A stretch of DNA of 64,000 bases from Verrucomicrobiota bacterium (lineage in GTDB: Bacteria > Verrucomicrobiota > Verrucomicrobiia > Limisphaerales > UBA9464). Under the pieces are notes generated by a model, which did no database searches, had not been told where the DNA came from, and worked only from the letters and a program-made list of their open reading frames with translations. The DNA lies in the NCBI GenBank assembly GCA_017309115.1, contig JAFLEF010000006.1, forward strand, positions 1 to 64,000. Direction: 5' to 3'. This document shows positions 1 to 34,000 of the stretch, in pieces. The position numbers were made by a program, and so were the translations under genes. The stretch's first letter is position 1. Every line of letters begins with the position of its first letter.

Positions 1-35
1 ACGGGCGAGGAAAAGGACAACATCAGGAACCTGAG

Positions 36-131
36 GCCCAACAAGATCACTGGACCGAACGCGGGCGGGCCACGCCAGTTTCCAATTCCAACGCCACTGG
101 CCGCCCACGTCGGTCAGTTCTGGCGTTGGGC
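36..131 (+). other. attC site 1 (integron cassette junction)
   Basis: Opens with the R'' box GCCCAAC (36-42) and closes with the R' core GTTGGGC (125-131). The inner arms around 49-67 (ACTGGACCGAACGCGGGC) and 103-118 (GCCCACGTCGGTCAGT) are imperfect reverse complements, as in the L''/L' arms of attC. It ends the cassette that enters from the left; one frame of that cassette stops at 32-34 just before the box, and another stays open to 150, so its coding frame is undecided. Confidence 0.75.
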
Positions 132-160
132 GGCGCTAGCTGTTTGGTGAAGTTGAAGCC

Positions 161-598
161 ATGGAGAAGACAAAGACGAGTAGCGGACTGCTCAAAATCC
201 TCTTTTGGATTGCCATAGCTTCAATCGTCGTAGGCTTGGCTCTCCCTGTTGTGTTCAATGGCGTTCCCATTGCAGAATTATTGATCGCGATACTTGCTCT
301 CGCTGTAGCCATCACGATTCCAATCCTTTTGTGGCTCAGACGGCCCATTTACACGGCAGTGTGGATTGCGGCATACGTCATTGTTTACGGCGTGTTGTCT
401 TGGTGTGGAGTCTACCTTGAAGGTAATTTTGGCGGGAGTGACAATCGACGGGTTTGGTATCCGGCCTATTGTGGCGAGACCTACTGGTCGCGAGGAGGCC
501 GACAGAAGTGCTCATTGCGCCCTTCCGCCTGGTTCTTCTTACCAGTTGTAATTCTTGATCGTGCGGTGATTCATCGGACACATTTTGATTCGTATTGA
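161..598 (+). CDS. Cassette A: small multi-pass membrane protein, unknown function
   Basis: I do not recognise this 145-aa protein. It is strongly hydrophobic: likely membrane segments lie near residues 10-33, 38-58 and 62-86, with a shorter hydrophobic stretch near 123-134. The loop between residues 87 and 120 is polar and holds three cysteines. The ATG at 161 lies 30 bp after the core of attC 1, and the stop at 596-598 lies 16 bp before the R'' box of attC 2, so the gene fills its cassette (126-701) in the usual cassette orientation. Membrane proteins of unknown function are common integron cargo. The gene is supported by the cassette framing and the coherent hydrophobic pattern, not by homology. 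Confidence 0.75.
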   Translation: MEKTKTSSGLLKILFWIAIASIVVGLALPVVFNGVPIAELLIAILALAVAITIPILLWLRRPIYTAVWIAAYVIVYGVLSWCGVYLEGNFGGSDNRRVWYPAYCGETYWSRGGRQKCSLRPSAWFFLPVVILDRAVIHRTHFDSY

Positions 599-614
599 GT
601 ATGCCGAAACCGGC

Positions 615-707
615 GCCCAACAAACCGACTGCACCGAACGCCGGGATCGCGTCTCGGTTGACAATCGAACACCATTGGCCCGGCGTCGGTGAGCCGGTGC
701 GTTGGGC
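615..707 (+). other. attC site 2
   Basis: R'' box GCCCAAC (615-621) and R' core GTTGGGC (701-707), 93 bp apart end to end. The R'' box is an exact complement of the box that opens cassette A (125-131). Its interior (AAACCGACTGCA, TTGACAATCGAA, CCGGCGTC) closely matches attC 8 and 9, which are also 93 bp long, so these three form one sequence subfamily. Confidence 0.8.
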
Positions 708-714
708 GAACAAC

Positions 715-1248
715 ATGCGCGTATTTTTGCCACTTGGCATTTCGCTAGAGCTTGCTGACGGCTGGCTTGATGTATCCGACGATCTTCCACCTGGCTCACC
801 CTTCACCTTGGCTAGAAGTGACGGCGTCGGCGCGTTTCAGCTCTCCGCCGCCATTTACCAGTGCGGGCGGATGCCAAATGCGGACATCGGTGAGCTTGTC
901 GAGATGCTGGCCCTGTTCGGAAAAGAAAAGGGTTTTGATCCGCCATCCAAGATGACGACCCGTCTTGGAGATGTGAGTTTTGCCGGCGGAAGCTTTGTGG
1001 GAGAAGATTTCATTCGCATCTGGTATGTCACCAACGGCCGCAGCTTTGTTTTCGCTTCTTATGTGGCAGCGACTCATGTGCCTGCCGAACTCGCTGATTG
1101 CGAGGCAATGGTTAGCTCCATCCGATTCAAGGAAGAGCCCAACAAGATCGCTACACACGAACCGCCGCAGCCCGATCCGAGCCCGGGCACATCGGTTCAT
1201 CGGACGCTGGATTCGCTGCCAGTGCCCGCTTACGGCGGCGGTCGGTGA
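715..1248 (+). CDS. Cassette B: unknown 177-aa protein, possible PsbP/DcrB-like fold
   Basis: The reading frame is open through attC 2, but the first ATG inside the cassette is at 715, eight bases after the R' core; I chose this start because cassette genes begin just after the core. The protein opens with PLGISLELADGW and ends its conserved part with DCEAMVSSIRF near residue 136. That layout, a short beta-rich domain closing with an acidic-Cys-Glu-SIRF helix, recalls DcrB/PsbP-like (DUF1795-type) proteins, but this is only a resemblance. The last 40 residues are translated from attC 3 itself, because the stop at 1246-1248 lies inside that site. The tail is therefore probably not a functional domain. 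Function unknown. Confidence 0.65.
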   Translation: MRVFLPLGISLELADGWLDVSDDLPPGSPFTLARSDGVGAFQLSAAIYQCGRMPNADIGELVEMLALFGKEKGFDPPSKMTTRLGDVSFAGGSFVGEDFIRIWYVTNGRSFVFASYVAATHVPAELADCEAMVSSIRFKEEPNKIATHEPPQPDPSPGTSVHRTLDSLPVPAYGGGR

Positions 1249-1263
1249 CCTCTGACGTTCGGC
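1137..1263 (+). other. attC site 3 (long type)
   Basis: R'' box GCCCAAC (1137-1143) complements the opening box of cassette B (GTTGGGC, 701-707). The R' core is GTTCGGC (1257-1263). The inner arms CACGAACCGCCGC (about 1157) and GCGGCGGTCGGTG (about 1234) pair. At 127 bp it is a long attC; its interior recurs in attC 6, including a near-identical segment from GAACGCTGGATTCGC-type sequence to GGCGGCGGTCGGTGA. Confidence 0.75.
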
Positions 1264-1277
1264 GACATCCCACGACG

Positions 1278-1610
1278 ATGGCAGCATCGCGTAAGCAGGA
1301 AATCTACCGGGAGTTCTTGTTCTGGTCGTTGCCTTGGATTCGCAACGTGCAGACTTGGCGGTGGTGGCATCCTCTCCGGCGAGGCAAGGCGTGCTATTAC
1401 GAGGCGGAGTTCATTCACAACCTGCCGCAGTCGATTCTGGAGCCGCAGTTTGTGGACCACGACGCTTACTTCCTGAACACGCAGGCTAGGATGTTCTGCG
1501 ACCATTGCAGGTCGTCGCCACACTACGAGAGTCATCTTGCCCTGATCCGCGAGTTGTTCACACTGTTGCCAGAGGAGCAGAGAGCACTTCTGACTTGGAG
1601 GGGACCATGA
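1278..1610 (+). CDS. Cassette C: unknown 110-aa soluble protein
   Basis: I do not recognise this protein. The frame is open from 1245, but that ATG lies inside attC 3; the ATG at 1278 is the first in the cassette and follows the core by 14 bases. The sequence is rich in Trp and Tyr (for example WSLPWIRN and WRWWHPLRRG near residues 17-37) and carries a CDHC motif near residue 76, which might bind a metal but could be chance. The C-terminal third is a predicted amphipathic helix (LIRELFTLLPEEQRALL). It has no signal peptide or membrane segment. The stop at 1608-1610 is 10 bp before the R'' box of attC 4, so the gene fills its cassette exactly. Confidence 0.65.
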   Translation: MAASRKQEIYREFLFWSLPWIRNVQTWRWWHPLRRGKACYYEAEFIHNLPQSILEPQFVDHDAYFLNTQARMFCDHCRSSPHYESHLALIRELFTLLPEEQRALLTWRGP

Positions 1611-1620
1611 CGCAGGCAAT

Positions 1621-1716
1621 GCCGAACCAGATCACTGGACCGAACGCGGACGGGCCGCGTCAGGTGGCAATTCGGACGCCACAGCCCACCCGTGTCGGTC
1701 AGCTCTGTCGTTCGCC
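1621..1716 (+). other. attC site 4
   Basis: R'' box GCCGAAC (1621-1627) deviates from RYYYAAC but exactly complements the atypical opening box GTTCGGC of the same cassette (1257-1263). The R' core is GTTCGCC (1710-1716). The interior (ATCACTGGACCGAACGCGG ... GTGTCGGTCAGCTCTG) is a close relative of attC 1. Confidence 0.75.
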
Positions 1717-1731
1717 AAGTCTCAACCGCGC

Positions 1732-2076
1732 GTGAACACAAACCAAATTAAGACGAACGGTTTTTCTTCAGCGGAGTCTGCTGCTCTATTCGATTCAAAT
1801 TTCGCGACGGACCCCGAGGCTCGTCGGGTGCACGAATCTGGCGGGCAGTGTGGTGGTTGCTCATTTTTCGGGCCCTTCAACGAGGACTACGGCCTTTGTT
1901 GCCACCCCGATTCCAGACACCGCACCGAAACCGTGTTCGAGCATTTCACCTGTCCGACCTATGTGGACGAAGGGTGGGGCGCTCACAGTTTCTCCCGGGA
2001 CAGTAACAGGCACTGCCGCTGCCAGGGGGAGTCACGGGAGCATTACGAGCGGCTTGTCGCGCTCTTGAGATCATGA
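1732..2076 (+). CDS. Cassette D: cysteine-rich protein, putative metal-binding
   Basis: A 114-aa protein starting at GTG 1732, 15 bases after the core of attC 4; no ATG is available upstream in the cassette. Residues 38-75 hold a compact Cys/His-rich block: CGGCSFFGPF, then GLCCHPDSRHR and FEHFTCPTY, with a further CRC near residue 97. The spacing CxxC...CCH...C looks like a small zinc- or iron-sulfur-binding module, and the conserved-looking FEHFTC element suggests a real family, but I cannot name it. It has no signal peptide or membrane segment. The stop (2074-2076) lies five bases before the R'' box of attC 5. The role is unknown; metal binding is an inference from cysteine spacing only. 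Confidence 0.7.
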   Translation: MNTNQIKTNGFSSAESAALFDSNFATDPEARRVHESGGQCGGCSFFGPFNEDYGLCCHPDSRHRTETVFEHFTCPTYVDEGWGAHSFSRDSNRHCRCQGESREHYERLVALLRS

Positions 2077-2080
2077 ATCC

Positions 2081-2152
2081 GGCGAACCAGACGCTGGAGA
2101 CGAATGCCGACTCCGCTTCGCTGCGTCGGCATCGCTCAGCTTATCGTTAGCC
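2081..2152 (+). other. attC site 5 (short type)
   Basis: R'' box GGCGAAC (2081-2087) is the exact complement of the opening box of cassette D (GTTCGCC, 1710-1716). The R' core is GTTAGCC (2146-2152). At 72 bp it is near the classic minimal attC size. The inner arms GCTGGAGACGAATGCCGAC and GTCGGCATCGCTCAGC pair with a few extra unpaired bases, as expected for a folded single-strand attC. Confidence 0.8.
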
Positions 2153-2172
2153 GGCACTGGAAGCTCGCATCA

Positions 2173-2415
2173 ATGTTACCCCGCATCACAGACAGGCAGG
2201 AACTGGTTGCAGTGGTTCAACGCGTCATGGACGTGGGATATACCGACGAGGAGATGGTCACGATCATGGACTTGCTGGTGAGGAGCACAGGATGTCCCCA
2301 TGTGTCCGATCTCATCTTCTGGCCGAAGCTGCCCATGACAGCCGAGCAGGTTGTTGACGCTGCGCTTGCCTATCGCCCGATCATTTTGGGAGCTGGTCAT
2401 GGCATCGACGGCTAA
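2173..2415 (+). CDS. Cassette E: unknown 80-aa protein
   Basis: The frame is open from 2104 through attC 5, but the first ATG after the R' core is at 2173, 20 bases downstream, giving 80 aa. The N-terminal 45 residues look helical (RQELVAVVQRVMDVG, then EEMVTIMDLLVRSTG), followed by a conserved-looking turn with FWPKLPMTAEQVVDAAL, in the style of the small helical immunity-like or hypothetical proteins often carried by cassettes. There is no membrane segment or signal peptide. The TAA stop (2413-2415) lies inside the R'' box of attC 6, so coding sequence and recombination site overlap. I do not recognise the family. Confidence 0.65.
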   Translation: MLPRITDRQELVAVVQRVMDVGYTDEEMVTIMDLLVRSTGCPHVSDLIFWPKLPMTAEQVVDAALAYRPIILGAGHGIDG

Positions 2416-2532
2416 GCGGATGCACACGAACCGCCGCCAAGCGTTTCAGTCTCGACGCGCAAGGTTTTTCGAACGCTGGATTCGCAGCCAGTGCCCGTTT
2501 ACGGCGGCGGTCGGTGATCCTGATCGTTGGAC
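2410..2532 (+). other. attC site 6 (long type)
   Basis: R'' box GGCTAAG (2410-2416) complements the opening box of cassette E (GTTAGCC) at six of seven positions. The R' core is GTTGGAC (2526-2532). The inner arms CACGAACCGCCGCC and GGCGGCGGTCGGTG pair. The interior is closely related to attC 3. The stop codon of cassette E sits in the R'' box and the likely GTG start of cassette F lies in its 3' arm. Confidence 0.7.
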
Positions 2533-2831
2533 GTAACCTCATACACACGAAGCGCTGGCCCGTCATTGCACTCGTTTTCGAGCTCTTGATCGCCGCAGTC
2601 CTAAGCCAAGTTGGCTTTCTGCGCCGACATGATTTCGATCGGGCATTTTTCGCCTCGCGGCAAAGCGCTACCCCCGAAGCAAAAGCAGAAATGGATCGGC
2701 AGAGGCGTTTGAACGAGTTGGTACGCTGGGAGTTTTCGATCATAGGATTTGGGGCCATGGCGGCTGTCACTCTGCTCGCATCCTTCGGTTACGAGCGCCT
2801 TCACCGCAGAAGCTCAGTAATTCCCGGATGA
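2514..2831 (+). CDS. Cassette F: small two-TM membrane protein, unknown
   Basis: A 105-aa protein with two likely membrane segments, near residues 17-34 (PVIALVFELLIAAVLSQVGF) and 76-93 (IIGFGAMAAVTLLASFGY). The stretch between them is charged and helical (ATPEAKAEMDRQRR), so the expected topology is a hairpin with a soluble loop. The start is uncertain: the cassette contains no ATG upstream of the first membrane segment, and the GTG at 2514 lies in the 3' arm of attC 6. Using it would mean translation begins before the cassette boundary. The stop (2829-2831) is 13 bases before the R'' box of attC 7. I do not recognise the family. Confidence 0.6.
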   Translation: MILIVGRNLIHTKRWPVIALVFELLIAAVLSQVGFLRRHDFDRAFFASRQSATPEAKAEMDRQRRLNELVRWEFSIIGFGAMAAVTLLASFGYERLHRRSSVIPG

Positions 2832-2844
2832 GCGCGCCAGGAAC

Positions 2845-2970
2845 GTCCAACAAGCCGCTGGAGGCGAACTGCCGCCCCGCCTCTCCGCTCGATCCGCGTT
2901 GGCAGTTCGGATGCGCCGTTCACGCGCTACCTTGCGTTTCCCGCGGCAGTCGATCAGCTTTTCGTTGGGT
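2845..2970 (+). other. attC site 7 (long type)
   Basis: R'' box GTCCAAC (2845-2851) is the exact complement of the opening box of cassette F (GTTGGAC, 2526-2532). The R' core is GTTGGGT (2964-2970). The inner arms AAGCCGCTGGAGGCGAACTG and GCGGCAGTCGATCAGCTT pair with bulges. Total length 126 bp. Confidence 0.8.
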
Positions 2971-2986
2971 AACAATCGAACGCGCT

Positions 2987-3415
2987 ATGAAAACTCAAGG
3001 CATCATTGCGATCGCATCCCTGTTCATCACAGTCGCGGGGGTACAGGCCAGGGACATTGAAATGGGCAAGCCAGCAGCCCCGCCGAACGCGAAGGCAGTT
3101 GCCGGCAGCTATTACTGCGGCGACGGTCTTGGCTACAACGTGACACTCACACTGAAGGAGAACGGCACGTACTCCGCCGAGTGGCACGGTTGCCTCGGCA
3201 AGTATGGAGATGCCTCGGGAAGCTGGAAGCTGTCCGACAAGCAGATAGCGCTTATACCGAAAACGGAACGAGACATGATGAAGGGCCACCTGAAAACGTT
3301 GGATGTTTTGGAGTACAAGGGCGGCTGGGTTTTCGTTCGCGCAGGCGATAGAGATTTTTACGACAAGCACGGTGTTTCCCGTTACTCGTGCTTCCAGAGA
3401 CGAGACCATCAATGA
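2987..3415 (+). CDS. Cassette G: exported lipocalin-like protein
   Basis: The frame is open through attC 7, but the ATG at 2987, 16 bases after the core, starts a clear signal peptide (residues 1-22, hydrophobic IIAIASLFITVAG, cleavage near VQA). The 142-aa product is then a small beta-rich domain: GSYYCGDGLGYNVTLTL, followed by NGTYSAEWHGC and a GSWKLSDKQIALIP turn. This strand order resembles lipocalin-like domains of the 'copper resistance NlpE or META-type' size, with a possible disulphide between the Cys of YYCGD and of WHGC. It would act in the periplasm or outside the cell. The stop (3413-3415) is 10 bases before the R'' box of attC 8. The fold call is inference; the export signal is clear. 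Confidence 0.7.
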   Translation: MKTQGIIAIASLFITVAGVQARDIEMGKPAAPPNAKAVAGSYYCGDGLGYNVTLTLKENGTYSAEWHGCLGKYGDASGSWKLSDKQIALIPKTERDMMKGHLKTLDVLEYKGGWVFVRAGDRDFYDKHGVSRYSCFQRRDHQ

Positions 3416-3425
3416 CAACAACACC

Positions 3426-3518
3426 GCCCAACAAGCAAGATGCAGTGAACCCGTCGATCGCACTCCGATTGACAATTGAGGATCAGAGGCGCCGGGTCAC
3501 TGATCTGGAGCGTTGGGC
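3426..3518 (+). other. attC site 8
   Basis: R'' box GCCCAAC (3426-3432) pairs with the opening box of cassette G (GTTGGGT) through one G:T wobble. The R' core is GTTGGGC (3512-3518). Length is 93 bp, and the interior (TTGACAATTGAGGATC, CGCCGGGTCACTGATC) matches attC 2 and attC 9. Confidence 0.8.
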
Positions 3519-3538
3519 TGAGCTTACGCCATGACACC

Positions 3539-3961
3539 GTGAAAGCGTTTTTCACCTTCTCAGCTTTGTTGTCGATCATGCTTGGCTTCTATTCCGTTTG
3601 GACCTCGGTAGCCGGAAGCGCGCACAACCACTACGCGACACGCTACTTTCTGCTTTATGACAGCGGATGGCGGGATATTTCCCCGTCATGGTGGGAGCTT
3701 AGCGAGGCTGACGTATCAGCGCAGCCGGAGAGGTTTGCGAAGGCATACCGAGAATCGGTTCTGGACGGTTACAGATTGGCGGGCGTGACCGGCAGGCTCC
3801 AGTCTCAGTGCCTTGTTTTGGCTGCGCTCCTATTCGCTGTCAGTTGCATCGGATGGTGGACAGCCCGGCGCCAGCAACTCCCCGTCCAACAAACCGGATG
3901 CAGAGAATCCGGCGGTGGCGCTCCCGTTGACAATCGAAAGCCTCTGGCGCCGGGTCTCTGA
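3539..3961 (+). CDS. Cassette H: two-TM membrane protein, unknown
   Basis: The frame is open from 3476 across attC 8; inside the cassette the first in-frame start is GTG 3539, 20 bases after the core (an ATG at 3531 is followed by a stop after three codons). The 140-aa product has a membrane segment near residues 4-25 and another near 93-111, enclosing an aromatic-rich, probably extracytoplasmic loop (RYFLLYDSGWRDISPSWWE). The last 26 residues come from attC 9, because the stop at 3959-3961 lies within that site, so the natural product may be functionally complete by residue 115. I do not recognise the family. Confidence 0.6.
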   Translation: MKAFFTFSALLSIMLGFYSVWTSVAGSAHNHYATRYFLLYDSGWRDISPSWWELSEADVSAQPERFAKAYRESVLDGYRLAGVTGRLQSQCLVLAALLFAVSCIGWWTARRQQLPVQQTGCRESGGGAPVDNRKPLAPGL

Positions 3962-3976
3962 TCCGGAGCGTTTCCG
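3884..3976 (+). other. attC site 9 (degenerate 3' core, end of recognisable array)
   Basis: R'' box GTCCAAC (3884-3890) pairs with the opening box of cassette H (GTTGGGC) with one wobble. The 3' core is GTTTCCG (3970-3976), which has lost the RRRY pattern. Length is 93 bp, and the interior belongs to the attC 2/8 subfamily. No R'' box complementary to GTTTCCG is seen downstream, so this is the last site I can support. Confidence 0.65.
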
Positions 3977-3986
3977 CACACCGCTC

Positions 3987-4340
3987 GTGAAAGCCAGGCG
4001 CAAACCAAAACAGAAACCGAAGCGCGACTTGCTTGTCGGCACTTGGCTGAACGGCAGTGAGTGGGCGAGCGAGGTCGAGTTCACAATCACTCGTTCCGGC
4101 GACTCTTATGCCATTCGGCTGCGCGACGGCTACGACGGTGAGGAGTCAGAGGTTTTCGACACCGCTTGGGATGGCGAGGTGTTGTCCTTCGCCACACATT
4201 GGAAGTCCACCGGACGGTTTGCGCGTTATCGTCTCTCGCTTTCGTCCACCAATCGCCTCGATGTCACCTACACCTACACCGACCATGAGATGTATCACCG
4301 CCAACGCGCCAAACGAAACGCCAACCCAGCACCGCCATGA
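3987..4340 (+). CDS. Unknown 117-aa beta-rich protein, last cassette-proximal gene
   Basis: The start is GTG 3987, ten bases after the decayed core of attC 9; the frame upstream of it is only attC sequence. The N terminus is a basic stretch (KARRKPKQKPKRD), followed by a compact beta domain that opens with GTWLNGSEW and contains GDSYAIRLRDGYDGEE, a strand pattern like that of small lipocalin-type cassette proteins. There is no signal peptide. The gene ends at an ATGA overlap (4337-4340) with the following VOC gene, so the two are probably translated together. Whether this pair is a two-gene cassette or chromosomal sequence next to the array cannot be decided, because no closing attC was found. 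Function unknown. Confidence 0.6.
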   Translation: MKARRKPKQKPKRDLLVGTWLNGSEWASEVEFTITRSGDSYAIRLRDGYDGEESEVFDTAWDGEVLSFATHWKSTGRFARYRLSLSSTNRLDVTYTYTDHEMYHRQRAKRNANPAPP

Positions 4341-4804
4341 AATGTTCCATCCGTACCTGCCTCTGGTTCCGCGACGGGCGCGGTCGGGAAGCTGCTGATT
4401 TCTACTGCTCCCTGATTCCAGAGAGTCGGATCGAGAGGACCTTTCAGGGCGACGCCGGATATGGCGCCTTCTCCGTGATCGACTTCTCGTTGGGCGGAGT
4501 GCCCTACCAAATTCTCGACGCCGGACCGATGTTCACACTGACCGAGGCGGTGTCGATTTCAGTTGCGACCGAAGATCAGGCCGAGACAGACCGCCTATGG
4601 GCGGCGCTGACGGCGAATGGCGGCGAGGAAAGCCATTGCGGATGGTTGAAGGACCGCTTCGGGGTATCGTGGCAGGTTTACCCAAAGCGTTTGACGGAGT
4701 TGACGACGAGCGCCGACCGGGATGTATCGACCAAGGCCATGGCCGCGATGATGAAGCAGATGAAGATCGACATCACCGTCATCGAGGCAGCGATTCGTGG
4801 CTAG
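4337..4804 (+). CDS. VOC-superfamily protein, PhnB-like
   Basis: A 155-aa single-domain protein of the vicinal-oxygen-chelate fold, in the PhnB / '3-demethylubiquinone-9 3-methyltransferase-like' group. The hallmarks are the opening CLWFRDGRGREAADFYCSL, where family members have a helix with an AxxFY motif, the central FSLGG-type strand (here DFSLGGVPYQILDAGP) and the closing WLKDRFGVSWQVYPKRL. Members are often assigned loosely as glyoxalase or resistance-like proteins; the actual substrate is not predictable. It starts in an ATGA overlap with the upstream small gene, which indicates translational coupling. VOC proteins are frequent integron cargo, so this may belong to the array, but I see no attC after it. 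Confidence 0.85.
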   Translation: MKCSIRTCLWFRDGRGREAADFYCSLIPESRIERTFQGDAGYGAFSVIDFSLGGVPYQILDAGPMFTLTEAVSISVATEDQAETDRLWAALTANGGEESHCGWLKDRFGVSWQVYPKRLTELTTSADRDVSTKAMAAMMKQMKIDITVIEAAIRG

Positions 4805-4927
4805 AAAAGTCAAAAAACCTAGCGCAAGGTTCGTCTGCCCATTGGGCATTTGGCACCGCCAGTGCTCGATCCCGGCGGAGGTCGGCGAACCGGGCCGTTC
4901 GTCGGACGTCGGACAACATTCCAAAGC

Positions 4928-5359: not shown

Positions 5360-5785
5360 CCAACGCGATTCGGGCAGCGACCCCTGCGTTGAACGGGCCC
5401 GGAGTGAGGGGTATCCGCAGATTGGCGCCGATTCGCGCAGATTTCAGGGAGATCGGTAGCCCGTTTCGAGGCGAGTCGATGGACGCCAGGTATTCTGAAG
5501 CCCTTCGGCAGCCAGCCGCTCCACCGCCTGAAGGCGGGACTCCGAACAGTTTGAACCATCCCCTCCTCCACGTTCCCTGCGTCCTCCGCGGGAGCCACTT
5601 CCTGTCATGCGAAGGCGAGGCGAGTTTCGCACTTCCACTGACCAGCGAACGCCGAGTTCCTTCGCTCCGCTCGGAAGCTCGGGGACGGCCCAGCGGTCCA
5701 TCCCTACCCTCCTCCGCGTTCTCCGCGGGAGCCACTTCCCCAGTCTCGAGCTTGAGTACCAATGGGCTCCCGGTAACATTCCAAC
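5360..5785. repeat. Repeat-rich spacer without a gene
   Basis: This 426-bp spacer holds no credible gene. It carries an AATCTGCG-family unit in the reverse sense at 5411-5446, a 105-bp segment (5604-5708) repeated at 6118-6222 with about two mismatches, and two copies of a CTCCGCGGGAGCCACTTCC phrase (near 5583 and 5722). The last 70 bp of the 105-bp segment is the hairpin repeat listed separately. Confidence 0.7.
5638..5708 (+). repeat. Dispersed hairpin repeat, copy 1
   Basis: Runs from CTGACCAGCGAACGCC to GGTCCATCCCTACC. Its core is a stem with arms CCGAGTTCC and GGAAGCTCGG around a short loop. Copy 2 (6152-6222) is nearly identical; copy 3 (46815-46883) keeps the flanks but has a different, still complementary stem. 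Confidence 0.7.
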
Positions 5786-23283: not shown

Positions 23284-25011
23284 ATGTTTCGACTCCCCCT
23301 TGTCCTACGCTGGTTTGCCCGCTGGTCGTTCCCCGGTCTCTTGCTGGGCGTCTGGCTGGGAATCAGTCACGCGCAATCGCTCACCCAGACCTTCGACCTC
23401 CAACCCGGCTGGAATGCGGTCTGGCTGGAAGTGGATCCTCCGGATCGCGATCCAGCGGTCGTTTTTGCCCAGTTGCCGCTCCACAGTGTGTGGACCTTCT
23501 CCGAGCGAATCAGCGCCACCGATTTCATTCAGAGTCCGGAGACCAGCGGCTGGAACCGGGCATTATGGCTGGGCTACTTCCCTCCCGACAGCCCGGAAGC
23601 GCGGCTGGCCAATCTCTTCGCCATTCTACCCCAGCGGGCCTACCTGCTTCGACTGGCCGGAACCAACACAGTGCGCTGGACGTTGTCGGGGCGACCCACC
23701 TGGGTGACGCCCGGCTGGGTTCCCGACCGATTTAACCTTCGCGGATTTCCCGTGGACCCAACTCTTCCTCCGACGTTTCAACAGTTCTTTCGATCTTCGC
23801 CGGCCCATTTCGAACCTCGCTCCGCCACGCTCCAGACCATTTATCGACTGAATGCCGACGGGCAGTGGACGAAGGCGTCCGGCGGCGATCGGATGCGAAG
23901 GGGAGAAGCGTACTGGGTCTACACGAAGGGAGCCTCCGATTTCGTGGCCCCCTTTCAACTTTCGCTGAACTCGGGGGAGACCATCAACTTTGACCGGTCG
24001 GATCGCCGGGTAGATCTCACCCTCCATAACCGCCATTCGCTGGCCAAGAGTGTGCAACTCACCCCACTCACCGACGATGGCTCTTCCCTGTTACTGCTCC
24101 CCACCAATCCGGCGCTGTCAACCAACGGCCCTCGTTCCCTCGCCGGACATGTTCAAACCGTTCCGGCCGGTTCCTCCGTTCGCCTGCGTCTCGGTTTGGA
24201 CCGAACCCGACTCCCGTCCTCGGCGGGAACCGATCCGGCGACCGGACGTCACGCTACCCTGTGGTCGGTGTCCGATGGTGAAGGGACGTTGTTTCAAGTG
24301 GGCGTGGACGCGGAAGTGGGAGATCCACTGGATTACACGGGGCTATGGCTCGGAACGGTCGTGGTCACCAACGTCTCTTCCGTCCTGCCGTCCACCAACG
24401 CGGCCCCGGCTCCCGGCCCAGTGGCGGTGGGTTTCCCTCTGCGACTGCTGCTCCACGTCGATTCCGCAGGACAGGCTTCCCTGCTGCGCGAAGTCACCCT
24501 CGTTTACACCCAGACCAATTCCGTGGCGGTGACCAATGGCGCCTCGGTTCTGGGGATTCGGCAACTGACCCAACTGGTGACGGATCCCGCCTGGCTGATC
24601 CGCTACTCTGCCGCCGATCTCCAAAACGGACTGGTCAGCGGTCGGCGAATCACCGCGCCCCACTTCGATTTCGCCCGGTCCAACGGCCAGTTCACGCTGC
24701 CGCTCCAGGGCGTCTTCGCCGCCGGCAACACGGTGACGGGAACTCTCAGCATCCCGCCAGACCTCCCGACCAACCCGTTCCTGCATCGGTATCATCCGGA
24801 CCACGGCACCAACGCCTACGGCCTCACTCGGGACCTGACCCTGTCTCTGGAGACCGGAGGAACCTCCGGCAACGACACACTTGATGACGTGCTGACCGGC
24901 ACCTTTCAGGAAACGATCACCGGCCTTCACAAGCTGCCCCTCCTCGCCTCCGGCTCGGTGCAACTCCAACGCATCTCCACACTGGGCCAACTGAATGCCG
25001 CCAACCCCTGA
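23284..25011 (+). CDS. Exported beta-rich protein, unknown function
   Basis: A 575-aa protein with a clear signal peptide (residues 1-31, FPGLLLGVWLGISHAQS) at the ATG 23284. The mature N terminus carries FDLQPGWNAVWLEVDP, and later MRRGEAYWVYTKG near 205, two phrases typical of a PVC family of secreted proteins that I know only as hypothetical. The rest is beta-strand rich, with many Asn/Thr-rich turns, fitting a surface or extracellular location. It lies 23 bp after the PpiC lipoprotein gene and 13 bp before the 3915-aa gene. The tight spacing implies co-expression and a common export or assembly path with that protein. No enzyme motif is visible. Confidence 0.8.
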   Translation: MFRLPLVLRWFARWSFPGLLLGVWLGISHAQSLTQTFDLQPGWNAVWLEVDPPDRDPAVVFAQLPLHSVWTFSERISATDFIQSPETSGWNRALWLGYFPPDSPEARLANLFAILPQRAYLLRLAGTNTVRWTLSGRPTWVTPGWVPDRFNLRGFPVDPTLPPTFQQFFRSSPAHFEPRSATLQTIYRLNADGQWTKASGGDRMRRGEAYWVYTKGASDFVAPFQLSLNSGETINFDRSDRRVDLTLHNRHSLAKSVQLTPLTDDGSSLLLLPTNPALSTNGPRSLAGHVQTVPAGSSVRLRLGLDRTRLPSSAGTDPATGRHATLWSVSDGEGTLFQVGVDAEVGDPLDYTGLWLGTVVVTNVSSVLPSTNAAPAPGPVAVGFPLRLLLHVDSAGQASLLREVTLVYTQTNSVAVTNGASVLGIRQLTQLVTDPAWLIRYSAADLQNGLVSGRRITAPHFDFARSNGQFTLPLQGVFAAGNTVTGTLSIPPDLPTNPFLHRYHPDHGTNAYGLTRDLTLSLETGGTSGNDTLDDVLTGTFQETITGLHKLPLLASGSVQLQRISTLGQLNAANP

Positions 25012-25024
25012 CCCCACTTCTCCC

Positions 25025-28000
25025 ATGACTGGCCGCCTTCTTCTCTCACAACGACACCTTCCGTCCTGGACGATCCTGTGGATGGCCTGGATCTCCGTCC
25101 GCGTCCTGGCCCTCGAATTTTCCTCGCCCACCGGTGGAGTGCCCCCCAACGCCCGAATCCTTCCCCCGCTGACTGTGGACACCCTGGATGGGAGCTATGC
25201 CCTGTCCAACGCGACGAACGGAGTGGTGATCTTTGATTTTCCCGACTCAACTCGCCCCGCCCAGCCGGTTCCAGAGTTTCTCGCCAAGTACCAGTTCGGA
25301 CTGGTGTCGGGCGGAGCGGACAACCGAACCTCGCTCACCTTCCATTACGGAAACCCCCTCGCCGGCGACGGAACCAACGCCACCAGCGAAGGGTTGCGCG
25401 TGGTCATCAGCCGACAACGCTCGATCCTCTCCGACCAGAAGCAGCTGCAGGTCCTCTGGAACAATCAGGTGTTGGTTTCGTCCAATTTCCCTGCCGCCTC
25501 CGACCTCGTGTTCAGCGGCTGGTGTCAGGTGACCGTCTCCAACCAAGTTCTAAACGTCGTCCTTTCTCCGCTCAACGAGTCCACCAACATCACCGCGGTC
25601 CAGGACCTGCCGCTGACATGGCTTCCCGATGCCTCCTGGAGATTCGGCCTGTCCTTTGCGTCTGGCATGCTTGATGGGAGTGTCGACGCGGCCGAGGTGG
25701 AGATCACCGGCTACACCGCGCCGTTCATCTCCAGCCCCCTGGGAGATCGCGCGATTTGGCAGGATTCCTTCGATGACGTGCCCTTGACGGTCGACTCGTT
25801 GGAAAACGTTTCACCTGCCAACATCGCGGTGACCTTGGAGTCTTCGGATCCCGACCTGCTTCCCCCGGGCAACCTTTCAGTCCAAACCGACTCCGCCAAC
25901 TCCCGAACTCTCCTGGTCGCTCCGGCCCCGGGGAAAACCGGAGTCGCCACCCTCACTGTCCGATTGGAATCCGGCGGGGGACTACCCACGGGTACCGTTT
26001 CCTACGCGCTCACCGTCAAACCCAACACGCCGCCGTCCGTCTCGTCTCTGGGCGGTCCGTTCACTCAGCCTTTTGGCATCACCCGGGTCATTCCGTTTAC
26101 GATCGGCAGTGAGCAGTGGAGTTCGGAACATCTGCGGCTGAACCTGTCCGCGGACCCCGGCCTGATTCAGTCCTACAGTCTGTTTGCCGAACCGCTGGAC
26201 GCTTCCGGAAACAACTACAATCTGGTCTTCACCCCGAACTCGAGTTCGGCCTCGGGAACGGTGTCGGTCCAGGTCATCGATGGGGCGGGCCTCACCGCCA
26301 CCAGCAGCTTCACCCTCACCAATGCGCCGGTGCCGTTGCCTCCCGTCACCCTGGGCGCCGGATCCGCGCTGGCGGTGAATCTGTTTCCCGTGTTCAGCAC
26401 CTTCCCGCTCGACCTTCCCGTTCCCGACCAATACGTCGCCGAGGCAGGCGCCTCGGACGTCGTGGGAGGAACCGTCACCGTCGAAGCGTGGGTCTGGGCG
26501 ACCCAGTTTTTCAATTCCTCGTTCAACGCCCTGGTGTGTCTGGGAGCCCCAGGCACGGGCATCAACCTGGGTTTCACCGGGAACGGAACCCCGGCGCTCT
26601 TCGGCGGCGCAAACAACTTCGTCCCCGACGATCCGGCCTACCGAATCCGGACGAACGAATGGCATCATGTCGCCGCCGTGGTTTCCGGCCAGGCGGTCAC
26701 CCTCTTCGTGGACGGCCAAGTCTCGGCCTCGGGAACCCTCCCCGCCCCCCTGAATATGGAATCCGGATCCATCTATATCGGGGACCTCGACCCGAATGGA
26801 ATCCGCCGGCCGTTTTCCGGATTCATCGACAATGTGCGGATCTGGAGTGAGGCCCGGTCCAATGGGGAGATTCTCGCGAACTACCAATCCCCAGTCGCTT
26901 CCGACGCTCCCAACCTGCTTCGCTATTACCGCTTCGAGGAGGGATTCTCTCACTTCGACGGGGCCAATCCGGATTTCTGGAAAGGTCAGGTCCTGGGCGG
27001 CGACGTCATCGTGGATTCCAGCATCCATTCCCGGTCAGCGCGTCTGGTCGGACATCCTTCTTTCGTCCCGGGCGCTTCGGAGGTCTCAACCGTCAACCTT
27101 CCGGAAGACCAAACCACCCGTCTGGGACTGGGCGCCCTGGTCAACGGAAACACGGTATCCGGCACTGCCGGCCTCACCCGGGAACTCTTCTTCGGTCCCC
27201 TGAGCAGCCTGATCAGTTCGGGTCTCCTGCGGAGTCCAGGCTGGCCCGACCGACCGGACGTCGTCCTCGCCCTCGGAACCGGGCTGGAGATGCCCGTCCA
27301 GCTTCAAGCCAGCGTCGGACAACGGTACAAGGGCTTCCTGTTGCCTCCGGAGACCGGCTCCTATCAGTTCGCCATCGCCAGCGCCCAGGAAGGTCAGCTG
27401 TGGATCAGCACGGATGAGTCCACCAACAACCTGGTGGCCGTGGCGAGTTCGCCCGCGAACGGTGTGGGCTTCCGCCGCTTTGACGTGAATCCCAGCCTGC
27501 AGCAGGGCAGCCGGAATCTGATCGCCGGACAGCGCTACTACTTCGAAGTCCGTCACCAAGCCGACAGTGGCGTCAACGGGCGTCCGCACTTGTCCGTCCG
27601 TTGGACCCTGCCCAGCGGGTTAGTCGAACTCCCGATTCCAGCCTACCGCATTCAACCCGTCGGGACTCCAAGCCCGGGCCAGCCCCTCGCCATCCAGACC
27701 CTCATCAACCCCCGGAACGGATCGGGAACCGTCTCCAACGGTTTCCTCCTCTACCAACCAAGCGCCAATCTGGTGGGAACCGACACCTATGGCTATTTCG
27801 CCACCAACGGACCGCTCGTCTCCGCCCCAGTCCTGCTGAACCTGAACATCGTCAACAAGGATGATGCTCCGGTCGCCGGTTCGCAGTTTGGCCTCGAACT
27901 TGACGGCAGCTCCGCGGGCGTCGTTTCGCAGGACAACTTCAACCTCACAGGTCAGTCCTTCACCGTGGAACTCTGGGCCCGACGAGCCTCCTCTACGCCT

Positions 28001-31000
28001 CCGGTCAGCAACCAAACCCAAACCCTCTGGTCCCTCCAGGATTCCGCTCCCTCCGCCAGCATCCAACTGGCGTGGCAACCCGACGGACGAGTTGGGGTCG
28101 TGCTCACCGGTCAGGGCGGCGACCAGCCCAGTCCGCCGCCGCTGATCAGCCAGGTACCCCTGCTTGATACCAACTGGCATCATTGGGCCGTCACGTTCGA
28201 TGCCCGGAGCAATCGCGTGGAACTCTTCCGCGACGCCACCAGCCTCAGTGCCACCAATTACGGTCCCGGAACCTTCGGTGTCACCAACGTCAAATTCTTC
28301 CTGGGTTCGCTGGCCGGTGCCGCCGGCTCCCAGTTCACCGGCACCGTGGATGAAGTGCGGCTCTGGAAGCGCGTGGTCAGTCCGGAAGATCTCGCCGCCA
28401 ACAACGGCGTGCCCCTGACCGGAACCGAGGATGACCTGCTGATCTACTACCGGCTCGACGAAGGCAACGGCCTGGTCGCCTACGACTCCAGTGCCCCCAA
28501 GACCGGCAATGTGTCGCTGGACGCCACACTCTTGGACCCCGTCGCCTGGGTCCCGGGAATCACCAACTTCCTCCAGATCCCGATTCCGCGAAACAGTCCG
28601 GGAACCACCGTGTACCTGCCCGGATTCGATTTCGAACGGGACCCGTTGACCTATCAGATCATTTCGCCCACCCCGCAAAACGGACGCCTGATTGCCACCG
28701 GGATCGGCCGCTACACCTACATTCCGAACACCAATTTCACGGGTGCCGATCCGGTGACCTATACCGTGACGGCCGGAGGCAAGGTATCCCAGCCGTACAC
28801 CATCACACTGAACGTGGACAAAGGGTTCATCCCTCCCACGATCAGCAGCATTCGGGATCTCGAACTGGAGGAAGAGGACCCTTCCCCCACCGTTAACTTC
28901 ACCGTGGGCGACGTGGACGATCCCTCGGGAAACAGCCTGACCGTGGTTGTCCGTTCCTCCAACGAATCCCTGCTGCCGCTCTCCAGCATCGTTCTCAGCG
29001 GTTCCGGCACTCAGCGGACGGTAACGTTGAACCCGGTGGACGGAGAGATCGGGACCAGCTCCGTGGAACTGGAGGTCAGCAACGGCAGCCTCAGTGCCAA
29101 GTCCCAATTCAACGTTCGCGTCAATCCCCGGCTGATCTATGTGGCGGTCAACGTGGGCGAAACCACCGACCAACCGTCCAGCTTCGCCACCTCGCTGAAC
29201 GACCAGGGTCAACTGGCGGGTTGGGTGGCCGGTGTCGCCAGCGCGACCAACAGCCAGCCTTTCTTCTACTCCGGCTACAACGATTCCTCCGCCACCTTCA
29301 TCACCTTGAATCTGGGCGGTTCCATCGGTGGCGCCTTCGATCTCAACAATTCCGGAATCATGGTCGGCGCCGCCGCAGACGCCCAAGGGAACCTTCACGC
29401 GTTTCAGATCCAACCCGGTCAGGACACCCAACCCACCGATCTGGGGACGCTCCTCGGTGGAACCGAAAGCGTGGCCACCGCCATCAACGATTCCGGACAG
29501 ATTGTCGGTTACGCCCAGGCCCCCGACGGCACGTATCGGGCGTTCACCGCCGGCACCGGTCCCATGACGGCGCTTCCCTTGGGGACCAACGTCGTCAGCC
29601 AATGGGCCACGACCGTCAATTCATCTGGCCAGATTGCCGGATACAATCTTGATGCTGCGGGAACCACGAATGCCTTCCTCTATTCGCTGGGTGAGTTCGT
29701 GGACCTGGGCCAACCCACCAACGCGCTGCACGTCGTGGCCACCACCCTCACCGATGAGGGAACCGTGTATGGTCAGGCCGTATTTGCCGATTCAGTTACC
29801 CGCGCGGTGAAATGGGACTCCGGGCAATGGACTGTCCTCGGCGACTTTCTCAACGGGGGAAAGACCGAGGTCTTGGGCGCCAATCGGTACGGGCAGGTGG
29901 TGGGACGCTCCCTCACGAACGGAGTCTGGCACGCGGTCCTGTACACCGAAGGTCAGGCCTACGACCTCAACGCCCGTCAAGCCAGTGACAGTCCCTGGAC
30001 GTTGATCAACGCCGTGGCGATTAACGATCTGAGCCAGATCGCCGCCACCGGTAGCATTTCGAATGGACCGCCCCAAGCTCTGCTGCTGTTCCCGGCCACG
30101 GAAATCGGCCGCCGCGTCTTCCGGCCCGAGGGCACCCTGCCACTGCTCCCCGACATCACCATCCTCAAGGGCAATGGCGGCGACGACAAAAAGAACTCCT
30201 TCCACTGGAGCACGGTGGACCAAAAGTTGTTCGCCCTCCGTCCTGTGGTCGCCGAGATCCGCTGGCGAACGGGCACCTACGTCGTCATTACGAATCTGAC
30301 GGAGTTTGGGGACAACGTGATCCGCCAGAAGGCCACCAATGAGGTGTTGATCTCCACGCTGTCGTTCAATGTCTGGCCCACCACTCCAGATCTTCATGTG
30401 GTTGATACCCCGGTCCAACTCCAACCCAACGAACCCGGCTTCGAATACGGCTTTGTGGAGATCGCCTACACCACGGCCGACCGGGCCCAGGTGGAGCCGT
30501 CCACCAAAACCTTCACCAGCACCGGGACCGGATTCAGCGTGCTGCACTACCTGAAGACCGGAGGACAACCCCTCAATCCCCAACTGCAATCGGACGCCTT
30601 CCAAGTAACCCGATCGGTTCGGTGGAACGATCCCCTCGTTCTGGTGAGCAATGTGAGCTGGACCATCGGGGTTCCGCTGACCAACGCGCTGCACGACGAT
30701 TATCCCGGACTCAACGGATACGTGCTCTTCACCAATGCGCCCTATGACGGCGCCGGACCGAATGCCGCCTATGACCGCACCACCCGCCAGGGAACAATTC
30801 TGGCGGTCAACACCAACTCGGCACCCAGCAACTTCGTGGTGGTTTGGTACCGTCAGAATCGCCTGGGGGTCTCCTGGTCGGGTTACCCGTATCAATACCT
30901 CCCGCAGTGGCCCACCAACGCTCCCACCATTGTCATCGCCAGCGGGCAAGGCTCCGGTCTGCTCCCGGCCAATCGGGGCAATCAGACGATGGTTTACGAA

Positions 31001-34000
31001 CAGTCCGACCCCACCTTGCCCGGCTTCAACCCCAATGAGGAACACGCCCTGATCTCCGGTGGGGTGCTCTACGCCCTGCGCAGCGACCTCAACCACAAGA
31101 TTTCGCCCCAGGCCTCGGAGCCCTTCTCCCTGCTCAAGTATCTGGATCCGGTGAGCGGCGAATGGCGAATGCAGGTGTATGCCGTCGTGGCCCAGACTCC
31201 AGAGTTACCGTTTCGTTATTCCGCCCTCGCGGGGAATCTAATCCAGCCTCCGGCACCCATCTCCCTCCTGCCGCTGTCGGCCCGCAATCGCTTCCTGTCC
31301 GGCCCCGCCTGGACGAATGTGACCGGCCAGATCTACGCCCGAGCAGCCGGCGCGGATGGTGGCTCGGACACCGTGGTCATGCAGTACTACTACCCCCTGC
31401 AACCCGGATTCTACTACGACCTCACTCGAAATGGACAACCCGCGTATCAAGTTGGCGACGCCGTGCCCTGGCTCGACCAGTTGCCCGGTCAGGTCGCCGG
31501 CACACCCATCCAAGTCCTCTACAAAGTGGAGTGGCCGGTGCAATCCCCTGCCCTCCAGGTCGGCCAAAGCTTGACCACTGCCACGGGAGGACTTCCGGAC
31601 ATTCTGGATATGGCCGCCGCTCAGATCATTTTCGACAGTCAGGATCCTCGCGGAGATTCCCCGATCACGGCCGCGGCCCGGCTCTATGACCCCCTTAGCC
31701 CCCGCGTGATTGCCCTCGATCCATCCTTCCAGTTCCCGACTTCCATTCAACGAACTGTCGATCCCGCCACGGGGTTCGAGGTTTTCACTGATCTCCCCTA
31801 CTTCCTCCGCGTCCGCCTGTTTCATGACCCCCGAAATCGCCAACTCGGATTCCGCGGATTCATCCACACGCCCGCTGACGGAGGCGCCCCCATCACACTC
31901 CTCAACGTCATGAACAAACGGGAGCAGCAGGTTATTCTCAACCTGGACACCACCGGCAGCGCCTCCTACCAGAACGCTCTCCGCCAACTCTATCAAAAGA
32001 CGCGCAACCCGAACGACATTGATCAGGACGCCAATGGTCTGCCCGACGACGGCCTCCTGATTGGATTGACCACCCAGACCGTCACCAACCTCAACGGAGT
32101 GACCAACCTCATTGTCGCCGAGACTCTGCAGGGACCAAAGGCGCTCACCGTGGGGCAGCCCCTTTCGCCATTAATCGCACCGCCCTCGGCGGCCGTAACT
32201 TTGAACGGAACCACGGGAGGCCTGGAGATCGGCGCCATTTTCTCCGCCGTCACGAATGACTTTACGATTGAGTTCTGGGTTCGACCGGAGGCAGCCCGCC
32301 TCGAAACCGTCGAGTCCGATGTGGTGGTTAACGGCCTTTCCGGACAGCTCTTTGCCATCTACCCCACCCAGGGCTCGGCGAACTATGGGAGCGGACATTT
32401 GGGGACCGGTGTGTCCGTCGGAACCAATGGCGTCTCTGTGTTCTTTCATGGGGACAATATCCTGACTTCCGCGCTCGTGTACGCCACCAATCTGACGGGG
32501 TGGCATCACCTCGCCGTGGTGGTGGAGGGCGCCCGCCCGGTGCTGTACGTGGATGGCTCGCTCGCGCGGGTCGGTCTGGGAATGACTGAAATTCTTCATC
32601 CGTCCGCCGATGTCTCCACCAGCAACTCCAACAGCGGGAATTACGGTCCCTTCCCGGGGAGCATTTCCGACCTCCGGATTTGGAATTACAACCGGTCGGC
32701 CGACGACATCGCCGCCAACCGATTCCGCCGTCTCACGGGCGCCGAAGCGGGCCTCGCGGGTCTCTGGCGAATCGATGACGGCGAAGGCAATACCGCGAGC
32801 AATGCCACGGTGGAATCGCAGCCCGGCACGCTGGTGGGCGGCTACACGTGGACCACCAACGCCCCGCCCCACGACCCCGGGGACCATTTCGTGGTCATCG
32901 CCGAAAACAATGACGCTTCCCTCGCCGGCCTGCCGGTGGACTTGCACGTGATCCGCATCGACGAATCCCTTGCCCGGGGCGCGCTGGCGGTGATCGAGTC
33001 GGACGATGTGTTGGATCAGCGGGTCACCCTGCGGCATTCCGCTGATTTCGCCGGTCAGCCGGAGAGTTTCGTTTTCGAATGGTACTACCAAGCGGATAGC
33101 CCCGGGTTTGATGCCACTCTGTTGCCCTCCATCGCTCCGGATGGTTCGGTCACCAATGTGGGGTTTTGGATTTCGTATCCGGATCAAGGAGCAGGCATTA
33201 ACGACGTCACCCTCGGATCCCAGGATCAATCCGGCCTGCTGGTCTTGTCGGATACCTGGTGGATTATGCGCTACGGCTTCACCCAAAAGGACGGCACGAC
33301 CCTGTGGAGTGGATGGGTGGGAGATCCTTCCGGAACCGCCAGTGCACCCCGGGCAATGTTGGTGCCGGGATGGATCAAACGGGTCCTGGAGGGAATCAAT
33401 TTGTTCGCCCAGCGCACCAGTGACTTCGAGGACAACACGGTCAATGTGTTGGCCAGCACCATTGCCGAAGCCGGCCCCCGGTACATCGGCGATGTCGCCC
33501 TCAACCCCAACGTTCTCGACAACTTCGGTCTGATCGCCATTTACCAGACCATTCTGAATCGCGGCCGATCGCTCAGCATCGACGGTACCCCGGCCGTGGA
33601 CTATCCGCCGGCCAATTCCGCTCTGCTCCTGGCGGCCGGCAACATTGCCGAACTGTACCTGCTCCACGCCAACGAAGCCTTTGCCGACGCCGCGGATCCC
33701 ACCATCGGATTGACCACGGATTCCACCGAGATGGGTAGCATCGCCTCCTCCGTGTTTGCCTTCCAGAACCAGGTTGGTTCGCTGCTCGAGGAAGAACTGG
33801 CCATGTTGCGCGGACGCGACGACAGCAGCGCCGGCGTAGGAGCCGACCCGGTCTACAACCGCCTGTACTGGAATTTCACCGGCGGTGACGGGGAGACAGC
33901 TTACGTCGCCAAGTACGGCATTCCTGATCAAAACGGGGACGGCTTCATTACGGCTGTGGATGCCAAGCTCCTGTATCCGCAGGGACACGGCGATGCCTGG

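Follow-up and report, generated by a model that had tools for sequence, protein, structure and literature searches.

What is the row of small genes at the left end of contig C68, and which integrase put it together? We address this question for a window of 64,000 bp, bases 1–64000 of C68 (210,992 bp) in a Verrucomicrobiota assembly, whose first 4–5 kb carry small plus-strand genes separated by nine sequences that a first-pass annotation had read as attC sites of integron gene cassettes. C68 starts at window base 1, and the contig edge lies 35 bases to the left of the first of these sites. The source assembly has 7.53 Mb in 111 contigs, with a listed completeness of 95.3% and contamination of 3.69%. 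The answer that we favour, and consider likely, is that this stretch is the distal part of an integron array, that several of the many similar rows in the assembly are former integrons, and that the one remaining integrase (IntI), on contig C3, moved cassettes in trans.

attC sites and cassette boundaries

Two covariance models were used to scan the window for attC, as the first-pass annotation had proposed. Model R1 was trained on 25 attC-like sites from intI-bearing loci of other, mostly proteobacterial, organisms (29 sites had been picked, and four were dropped, two of them in L079, one at L058:29-89 and one in L086). Model R2 was trained on 21 of the 28 R1-matched sites on other contigs of the same assembly, with none from the window. 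A box-and-stem finder separated sites from background poorly, and its use was limited to picking training sites. R2 finds nine sites, all on the plus strand and at exactly the starts that had been read from the letters (Table 1), with E values from 1.1e-22 to 1.1e-4; the next-best matches in the 64 kb are the reverse strand of attC 2 (E 0.18) and then matches at E ≥1.2. The independent R1 recovers five of the nine, again all on the plus strand (attC 1, 2 and 8 at E <5e-4, attC 3 at 0.11 and attC 5 at 0.16), and across the 64 kb at E up to 10 it matches nothing else. Rfam at gathering thresholds gave zero matches in the window.

Folded as bottom-strand DNA and compared with shuffles, attC 1, 2, 8 and 9 have z values of -2.6 to -4.7, and those of attC 4 (-2.1) and attC 5 (-1.8) are moderate. 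In the R2 training sites 16 cells of the stem show two-sided change against 5.9 after shuffling, a value that 0 of 500 shuffles reach, and pairs with two-sided change number 5 against 3.0, which 40 of 500 shuffles reach; this statistic ignores relatedness.

The GTT of the R' box lies at positions 125, 701, 1257, 1710, 2146, 2526, 2964, 3512 and 3968, giving core-to-core spacings of 576, 556, 453, 436, 380, 438, 548 and 456 bp, in agreement with the eight cassettes of 380–576 bp described earlier. If circles insert at G^TT, the two boxes of one site should stem from two different cassettes, whereas the R' of one site and the R'' of the next, supplied by one inserted circle, should match. Seven of the eight neighbouring pairs in the window could be scored in this way (attC 6 has an R'' without the AAC that the scoring required, which leaves its pair unscored); five match at 7/7 positions and two at 6/7. 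All rows of the assembly together give 125 neighbouring pairs, 105 of them with gaps ≤700 bp and 83 with both boxes recognised. The four variable bases agree perfectly in 52 of these 83, where shuffling expects 10.7 and reaches at most 23 in 10,000 trials, as compared with 16 of 97 when the boxes inside one site are compared and 10 of 32 for pairs with a rare R' box. Read from the sequences, this exchange of boxes is the trace of integrase-type recombination, a history in which circular cassettes were inserted at G^TT, and it argues strongly against an unrelated repeat family. The sites do fall into few sequence classes, as dispersed repeats would, but the attC models, the covariation, the cassette-boundary pattern, the gene orientation and the presence of an IntI all speak the other way, and there is virtually no chance that the nine spacers belong to some other repeat family and are not attC sites.

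Each of the eight cassettes has one plus-strand open reading frame (ORF), and in 101 of 114 cassettes examined throughout the assembly it is the attC strand that carries the longest ORF. The earlier statement that these genes start 8–30 bases past a core holds, by reading, for seven of the eight but not for the sixth, whose listed start, GTG 2514, falls inside the preceding attC. Beyond what had been described, one more cassette follows the last site (cassette 9), and to its right there is a possible decayed tenth attC.

The earlier observation is thus confirmed, and its interpretation as an integron cassette array is supported by the attC models together with the R'/R'' exchange pattern, with two corrections. 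The annotation had tied its reading to attC matches at all nine places and to an intI on the same contig; the matches are there, but no protein of C68 exceeds the IntI family cut-off, and an integrase directly to the left, where it had been placed from the orientation, is a possibility only, as many rows of this assembly have no intI. It had also presented an integron in a PVC (Planctomycetes–Verrucomicrobia–Chlamydiae) bacterium as noteworthy; the array is real, but Verrucomicrobiota are already among the phyla listed with integrons in PMC8618304 (this and the other articles given by PMC number are cited from excerpts).

The integrase, other rows and attI-like sequences

A single protein in the assembly exceeds the TIGR02249 cut-off (417 bits against 265). 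It is an intact IntI of 364 residues encoded at C3:5670-6764, the stop being the natural one at the gene end, and it aligns over residues 44–363 to the IntI4 of PDB 2a3v (E 5e-86). It retains the R, H-x-x-R and Y motifs; for the roles of these motifs, and for which stretch of the protein is the IntI-specific extra domain, we assume what is generally held. Among the 20 integrase matches listed in the assembly, none lies on C68. Contig C3 is 8,956 bp long and carries 11 attC sites beside intI, in an array that breaks off 119 bp from the left end of the contig; a sedentary chromosomal integron is recognised by more than 10 attC beside intI. Its attI is a conserved sequence whose end is at G^TT, with the first attC 343 bp further on and the intI start at a distance of 280 bp.

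The window array is one of many. We ran R2 on the window and 34 other stretches, kept matches down to 21.5 bits and joined clusters across gaps of up to 4 kb. At least 156 attC-like sites, 140 of them at ≥30 bits, form 31 clusters on the window and 29 other stretches; 21 clusters hold three or more attC, and at ten places there is a single one. The count includes the 21 training sites of R2 and leaves out seven weaker or doubled R2 matches (five of 104 and two of 50). Loose first looks at the whole genome gave 125 sites at E ≤1 with R2 (150 of 8,128 candidates scored) and one site with R1 (150 of 3,960 scored), so the genome counts are lower bounds.

Could these rows be pieces of one large integron, broken by assembly, that starts at the C3 intI? 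The array on C3 is indeed cut near the end of a short contig, similar attC sites are reported to hamper assembly (PMC9024848), and eight rows of at least three sites lie ≤750 bp from a contig end on their integrase-near side, namely those on C68 (the window), C92, C75, C57, C54, C72, C17 and C20 (C67 is left out of this count as it has its own attI copy on the contig). On the other hand, two rows on C46 (235 kb) and those on C36, C90, C33 and C16 lie deep inside long contigs, and the 14 attI-like copies described below head or accompany separate rows. When window bases 1–1000 were compared with the other contigs, the matches listed were attC-length copies at ≤95% only, with no joinable contig end among them. 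For the window alone a join with C3 may hold, yet at least five pieces (C3, C108, C81, C86 and C80) end on the far side, and for the window's left neighbour there are five or more candidates, the C3 intI row among them. We therefore regard a single broken integron as improbable.

Upstream of each cluster's first attC we searched for the sequence that completes the R box. It was found in six cases, five of them at a conserved site. One attI-like sequence, type 1, is common to C108, C81 and C86 and also stands between intI and the first attC on C3; a second, type 2, is common to the minus-strand row of C46 and to C80; the sixth completing sequence, on C95 ahead of a single attC, is neither. There are eight copies of type 1, seven of them exact and the other with one mismatch, and six of type 2, with up to three mismatches; neither pattern has a match when read backwards. 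Searched for at ≤2 mismatches, the C3 attI motif gives 17 matches, nine of which, with two mismatches, were left out of the count. Twelve of the 14 copies have an attC on the same strand within 450 bp (in fact within 420 bp), where random placement gives 1.2 (maximum 5 in 2000 trials), and 11 of these 12 are without an intact intI. The plus-strand cluster of C46 contains two attI copies and so probably comprises at least two rows. Some pairs of type 1 copies have only about 52–76 bp in common up to the crossover point and others 129–504 bp; the C3 attI region matches that of C81 over 236 bp at 94% and that of C108 over 504 bp at 88%. In 50 other genomes of the family the C3 attI motif has five one-mismatch matches, one each in five genomes, which is about what chance gives by arithmetic, and both motifs are absent from 95 intI loci of other genomes.

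Remnants of intI accompany some of these copies. The C108 copy is adjoined by two pieces of an intI start (residues 1–80), the remainder being lost, and the type 2 copy of the C46 minus-strand row by decayed and distant intI-like pieces (29–36% identity, E 7e-8 to 0.004); in addition, the start of C29 holds a 79-residue intI fragment 75% identical to the intact gene product of C3. Because intI remnants adjoin attI copies, some rows look like former integrons, and orphan attI copies and intI remnants together mark them as such.

It has been proposed that CALIN, clusters of attC lacking integron integrase (Cury et al., as cited in PMC8618304 and PMC9024848), arise by off-target insertion, by loss of intI or by rearrangement (PMC8618304), and the present assembly lets the origin of integrase-less arrays be tested. 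Off-target insertion of cassettes at attG-like sites, of a kind already on record (Loot 2024, as cited in PMC12444791 and PMC12901181), might have founded the scattered rows in place of attI copies; the ten places with a single attC fit this, as does the finding that the R' of distal sites differs between rows. Such an origin may hold for rows without a located start, but 12 attC sites or rows come after a copy of one or other conserved attI-like sequence, two of them with intI remnants alongside, and as an account of the scattered rows we judge it unlikely.

We also note an IS91-type element with a tyrosine recombinase inside a C46 row (L019:3026-5184). This recombinase lacks the IntI stretch, and we rejected it as a second array integrase, the next two genes being of the IS91-type families PF14319 and PF04986. 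On C44 (L126:14200-17867) a similar recombinase beside a row, also without the IntI stretch, is cut short, and its C-terminal part comes some 2.6 kb later, past a 690-codon serine recombinase; we read it as a candidate for the same sort of element.

Cassettes shared between rows

A comparison of 115 cassette bodies found eight pairs that recur between rows, three at 96–100% identity and five at 80–91%. The body of window cassette 7 recurs in the C75 row at 96% identity, which extends from the R' core through most of the cassette's own attC, and cassettes on C46 and C108 that are 97.8% identical show the same pattern of extent. The body of window cassette 6 has a counterpart at 81% identity in the C3 row that carries intI. 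Copies of cassette 9 at 90–92% are found in two other genomes of the family (G016 and G050; L175 and L176), each straight after an attC. In G050 a weak attC stands directly behind the copy (E 0.0023; L176:1420-1516), and in G016 none was found behind it.

Near-identical cassettes in different rows suggest traffic between rows. In the explanation that we favour, each cassette was a circle closed by its own folded attC, and an IntI joined it into the array by a cut between G and TT, leaving the R' half at the cassette start and the R'' half at its end, a history that the sequence shows. Several rows most likely began as integrons and later lost intI, and from the shared cassettes and conserved attI copies we infer that the remaining IntI, that of C3, carried cassettes from row to row in trans and continues to do so. 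More tentatively, the whole might be a distributed integron, with a single IntI working in trans at scattered attI platforms (two types, 14 copies), each heading its own row, and with cassettes circulating among many neighbourhoods of the chromosome and not within one array.

A number of observations weigh against this explanation. Whatever attI and left neighbour the window has lie past the contig end. The independent model R1 misses four of the nine window sites, and three long sites fold no better than shuffles (z -0.5 for attC 3, -1.0 for attC 6 folded as 2416–2532 with its first six bases absent, and -0.1 for attC 7). For two of the 14 attI-like copies, those on C26 and C10, no attC follows. 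Behind the C17 copy (97%) of window cassette 5 no attC is recognised, and the cassette bodies at L017:746-1213 (C3) and L129:1123-1590 (C81) are identical over 464 bases although their attC sites differ; the explanation accounts for neither case. Recombination in trans by the C3 IntI is deduced from sequence comparison, and the shared cassettes could also be explained by segmental duplication or by integrases now lost. Finally, composition does not confirm the integrase contig as part of this genome. The tetranucleotide r of the right flank of C3 against the window is 0.66, under the 5% mark (0.74) for the genome's own pieces of that size (these give 0.74–0.94 and controls 0.54–0.85), that of intI plus flank 0.82 (0.81–0.95 and 0.64–0.87), and that of the whole of C3 0.88 (0.92–0.98 and 0.67–0.89). 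These values are compatible with C3 coming from a close relative in the sample, as it may do, and C3 is tied to other contigs only through its attI, its cassettes and intI remnants.

If the bin were mixed, the rows and the one integrase would belong to different organisms; the listed contamination, and the poorer match of C3 to the window than that of other pieces, would fit this. Flanking sequence of the other rows is close to the window in composition (r 0.93–0.985 on 28 stretches, the C3 flank being too short to be included) where eight control loci of other genomes give 0.69–0.90, and C3 is linked by its attI region to C81 and C108, by a 100% cassette to C81 and by intI remnants to C108 and C29. 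We consider a mixed bin quite unlikely for these reasons, and retain the explanation by former integrons served by the C3 IntI.

Cassette genes and related systems

The coordinates of the sites and genes are collected in Table 1. None of the eight window cassette proteins exceeds a Pfam cut-off (best E 0.021), which bears out the earlier remark that no cassette gene is of recognised function, and PHROGs gave them one weak match only (E 0.039, unknown function); by comparison, Pfam matches at E ≤0.001 were obtained for six of ten non-cassette window proteins chosen as a control. With 96 plus-strand ORFs from other cassettes added to these eight, the 104 cassette proteins scanned match 19 Pfam families in 20 family-by-protein matches, all but one family being found in a single protein. 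Immunity families are represented by SUKH-1 (two proteins), barstar, Imm35, Imm32 and Tdi1; there are single matches to TatA and to HtrA-like proteases, and four PADLOC models match one protein each. Because several cassette proteins belong to immunity families, the arrays may store protection against the toxins of rivals, along with many unknown small proteins; the enrichment of such families is a candidate only.

Table 1. Positions of attC sites and cassette genes in the window (E values from covariance models R1 and R2; z from folding of the bottom strand)
Feature	Position	Strand	Remarks
attC 1	36..131	+	R'' GCCCAAC, R' GTTGGGC; R1 E 2.3e-5, R2 E 4.6e-18; fold z -4.7
Cassette 1 gene	161..598	+	145 residues, hydrophobic stretches, no family over cut-off
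attC 2	615..707	+	R1 E 5.3e-5, R2 E 8.9e-15
Cassette 2 gene	715..1248	+	177 residues from ATG 715; stop inside attC 3
attC 3	1137..1263	+	R2 E 1.1e-22, R1 E 0.11
Cassette 3 gene	1278..1610	+	110 residues from ATG 1278
attC 4	1621..1716	+	R'' fully complementary to R' of attC 3; R2 E 1.5e-14, R1 no match
Cassette 4 gene	1732..2076	+	114 residues, GTG start, cysteine-rich
attC 5	2081..2152	+	Short; R'' fully complementary to R' of attC 4; R2 E 2.5e-8, R1 E 0.16
Cassette 5 gene	2173..2415	+	80 residues from ATG 2173; distally the C17 row has a stretch 97% identical to the body
attC 6	2410..2532	+	R'' GGCTAAG, mutated AAC; R2 E 1.5e-16, R1 no match
Cassette 6 gene	2514..2831	+	105 residues; start within attC 6 or at a codon further on
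attC 7	2845..2970	+	R'' fully complementary to R' of attC 6; R2 E 2.5e-15, R1 no match
Cassette 7 gene	2987..3415	+	142 residues, signal-peptide-like start
attC 8	3426..3518	+	R1 E 4.5e-4, R2 E 2.6e-8
Cassette 8 gene	3539..3961	+	140 residues from GTG 3539; stop inside attC 9
attC 9	3884..3974	+	Weakest of the nine; R' GTTTCCG; R2 E 1.1e-4, R1 no match
Cassette 9	3969..4334	+	ORF 3978–4340; no own attC recognised; 90–92% copies in two family genomes
Gene with PF06983, cassette or flank	4337..4804	+	Pfam domain match
Possible decayed tenth attC	4812..4903	+	R2 E 1.3, alone at chance level; by eye similar to long-class attC sites in their 3' half

In Vibrio, the array is a single one and more uniform. 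Like the sedentary chromosomal integrons of Vibrio and Xanthomonas, the system described here has an IntI, an attI, arrays of small genes ending in attC and boundaries at G^TT; it differs from them in that its cassettes are spread over many places and that attC sites of about 93, 96 and 126 nt stand side by side in one row. The window array, which the contig edge cuts 35 bases left of its first attC, may be a CALIN, and like most of the others it has attC and, as assembled, no intI nearby, but here 11 attC sites or rows without an intact intI follow an attI-like copy, with intI remnants beside two.

Xanthomonas with additional CALIN is alike in having one intI locus and CALIN elsewhere on the chromosome. 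There, seven distinct CALIN loci are reported over well-sampled species (PMC12444791), whereas here 21 rows of three or more sites occur in one assembly. An archaeal metagenome-assembled genome with as many as 107 attC, on more than 18 contigs (PMC9668308), is similar in having many attC across many contigs; the present assembly has 156 sites or more, along with attI copies that are repeated and cassettes common to several rows. Because the phylum is already listed with integrons and this archaeal case is in print, the array is known in kind. The array itself is ordinary, and what is unusual is the scattered layout of the rows and the repeated attI copies; in the excerpts of the integron literature reached by a narrow search, no description of orphan attI copies was found.

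Of 51 genomes of the family, 14 encode an IntI above the cut-off, and attC matches at E ≤1e-4 occur in 32; those 14 all fall within the 32, which leaves 18 with attC matches but no such IntI. Across the phylum, 80 of 288 genomes drawn have an IntI over the cut-off. Two genomes of the same family, G048 and G042, each have twenty attC matches and no IntI match at E ≤1e-60.

We also note two features of the window outside the array. Just right of the array region, at 5556–5740, there are short GC-rich direct repeats 137–146 bp apart, and positions 24995–36769 form a single open frame of 3,925 codons.

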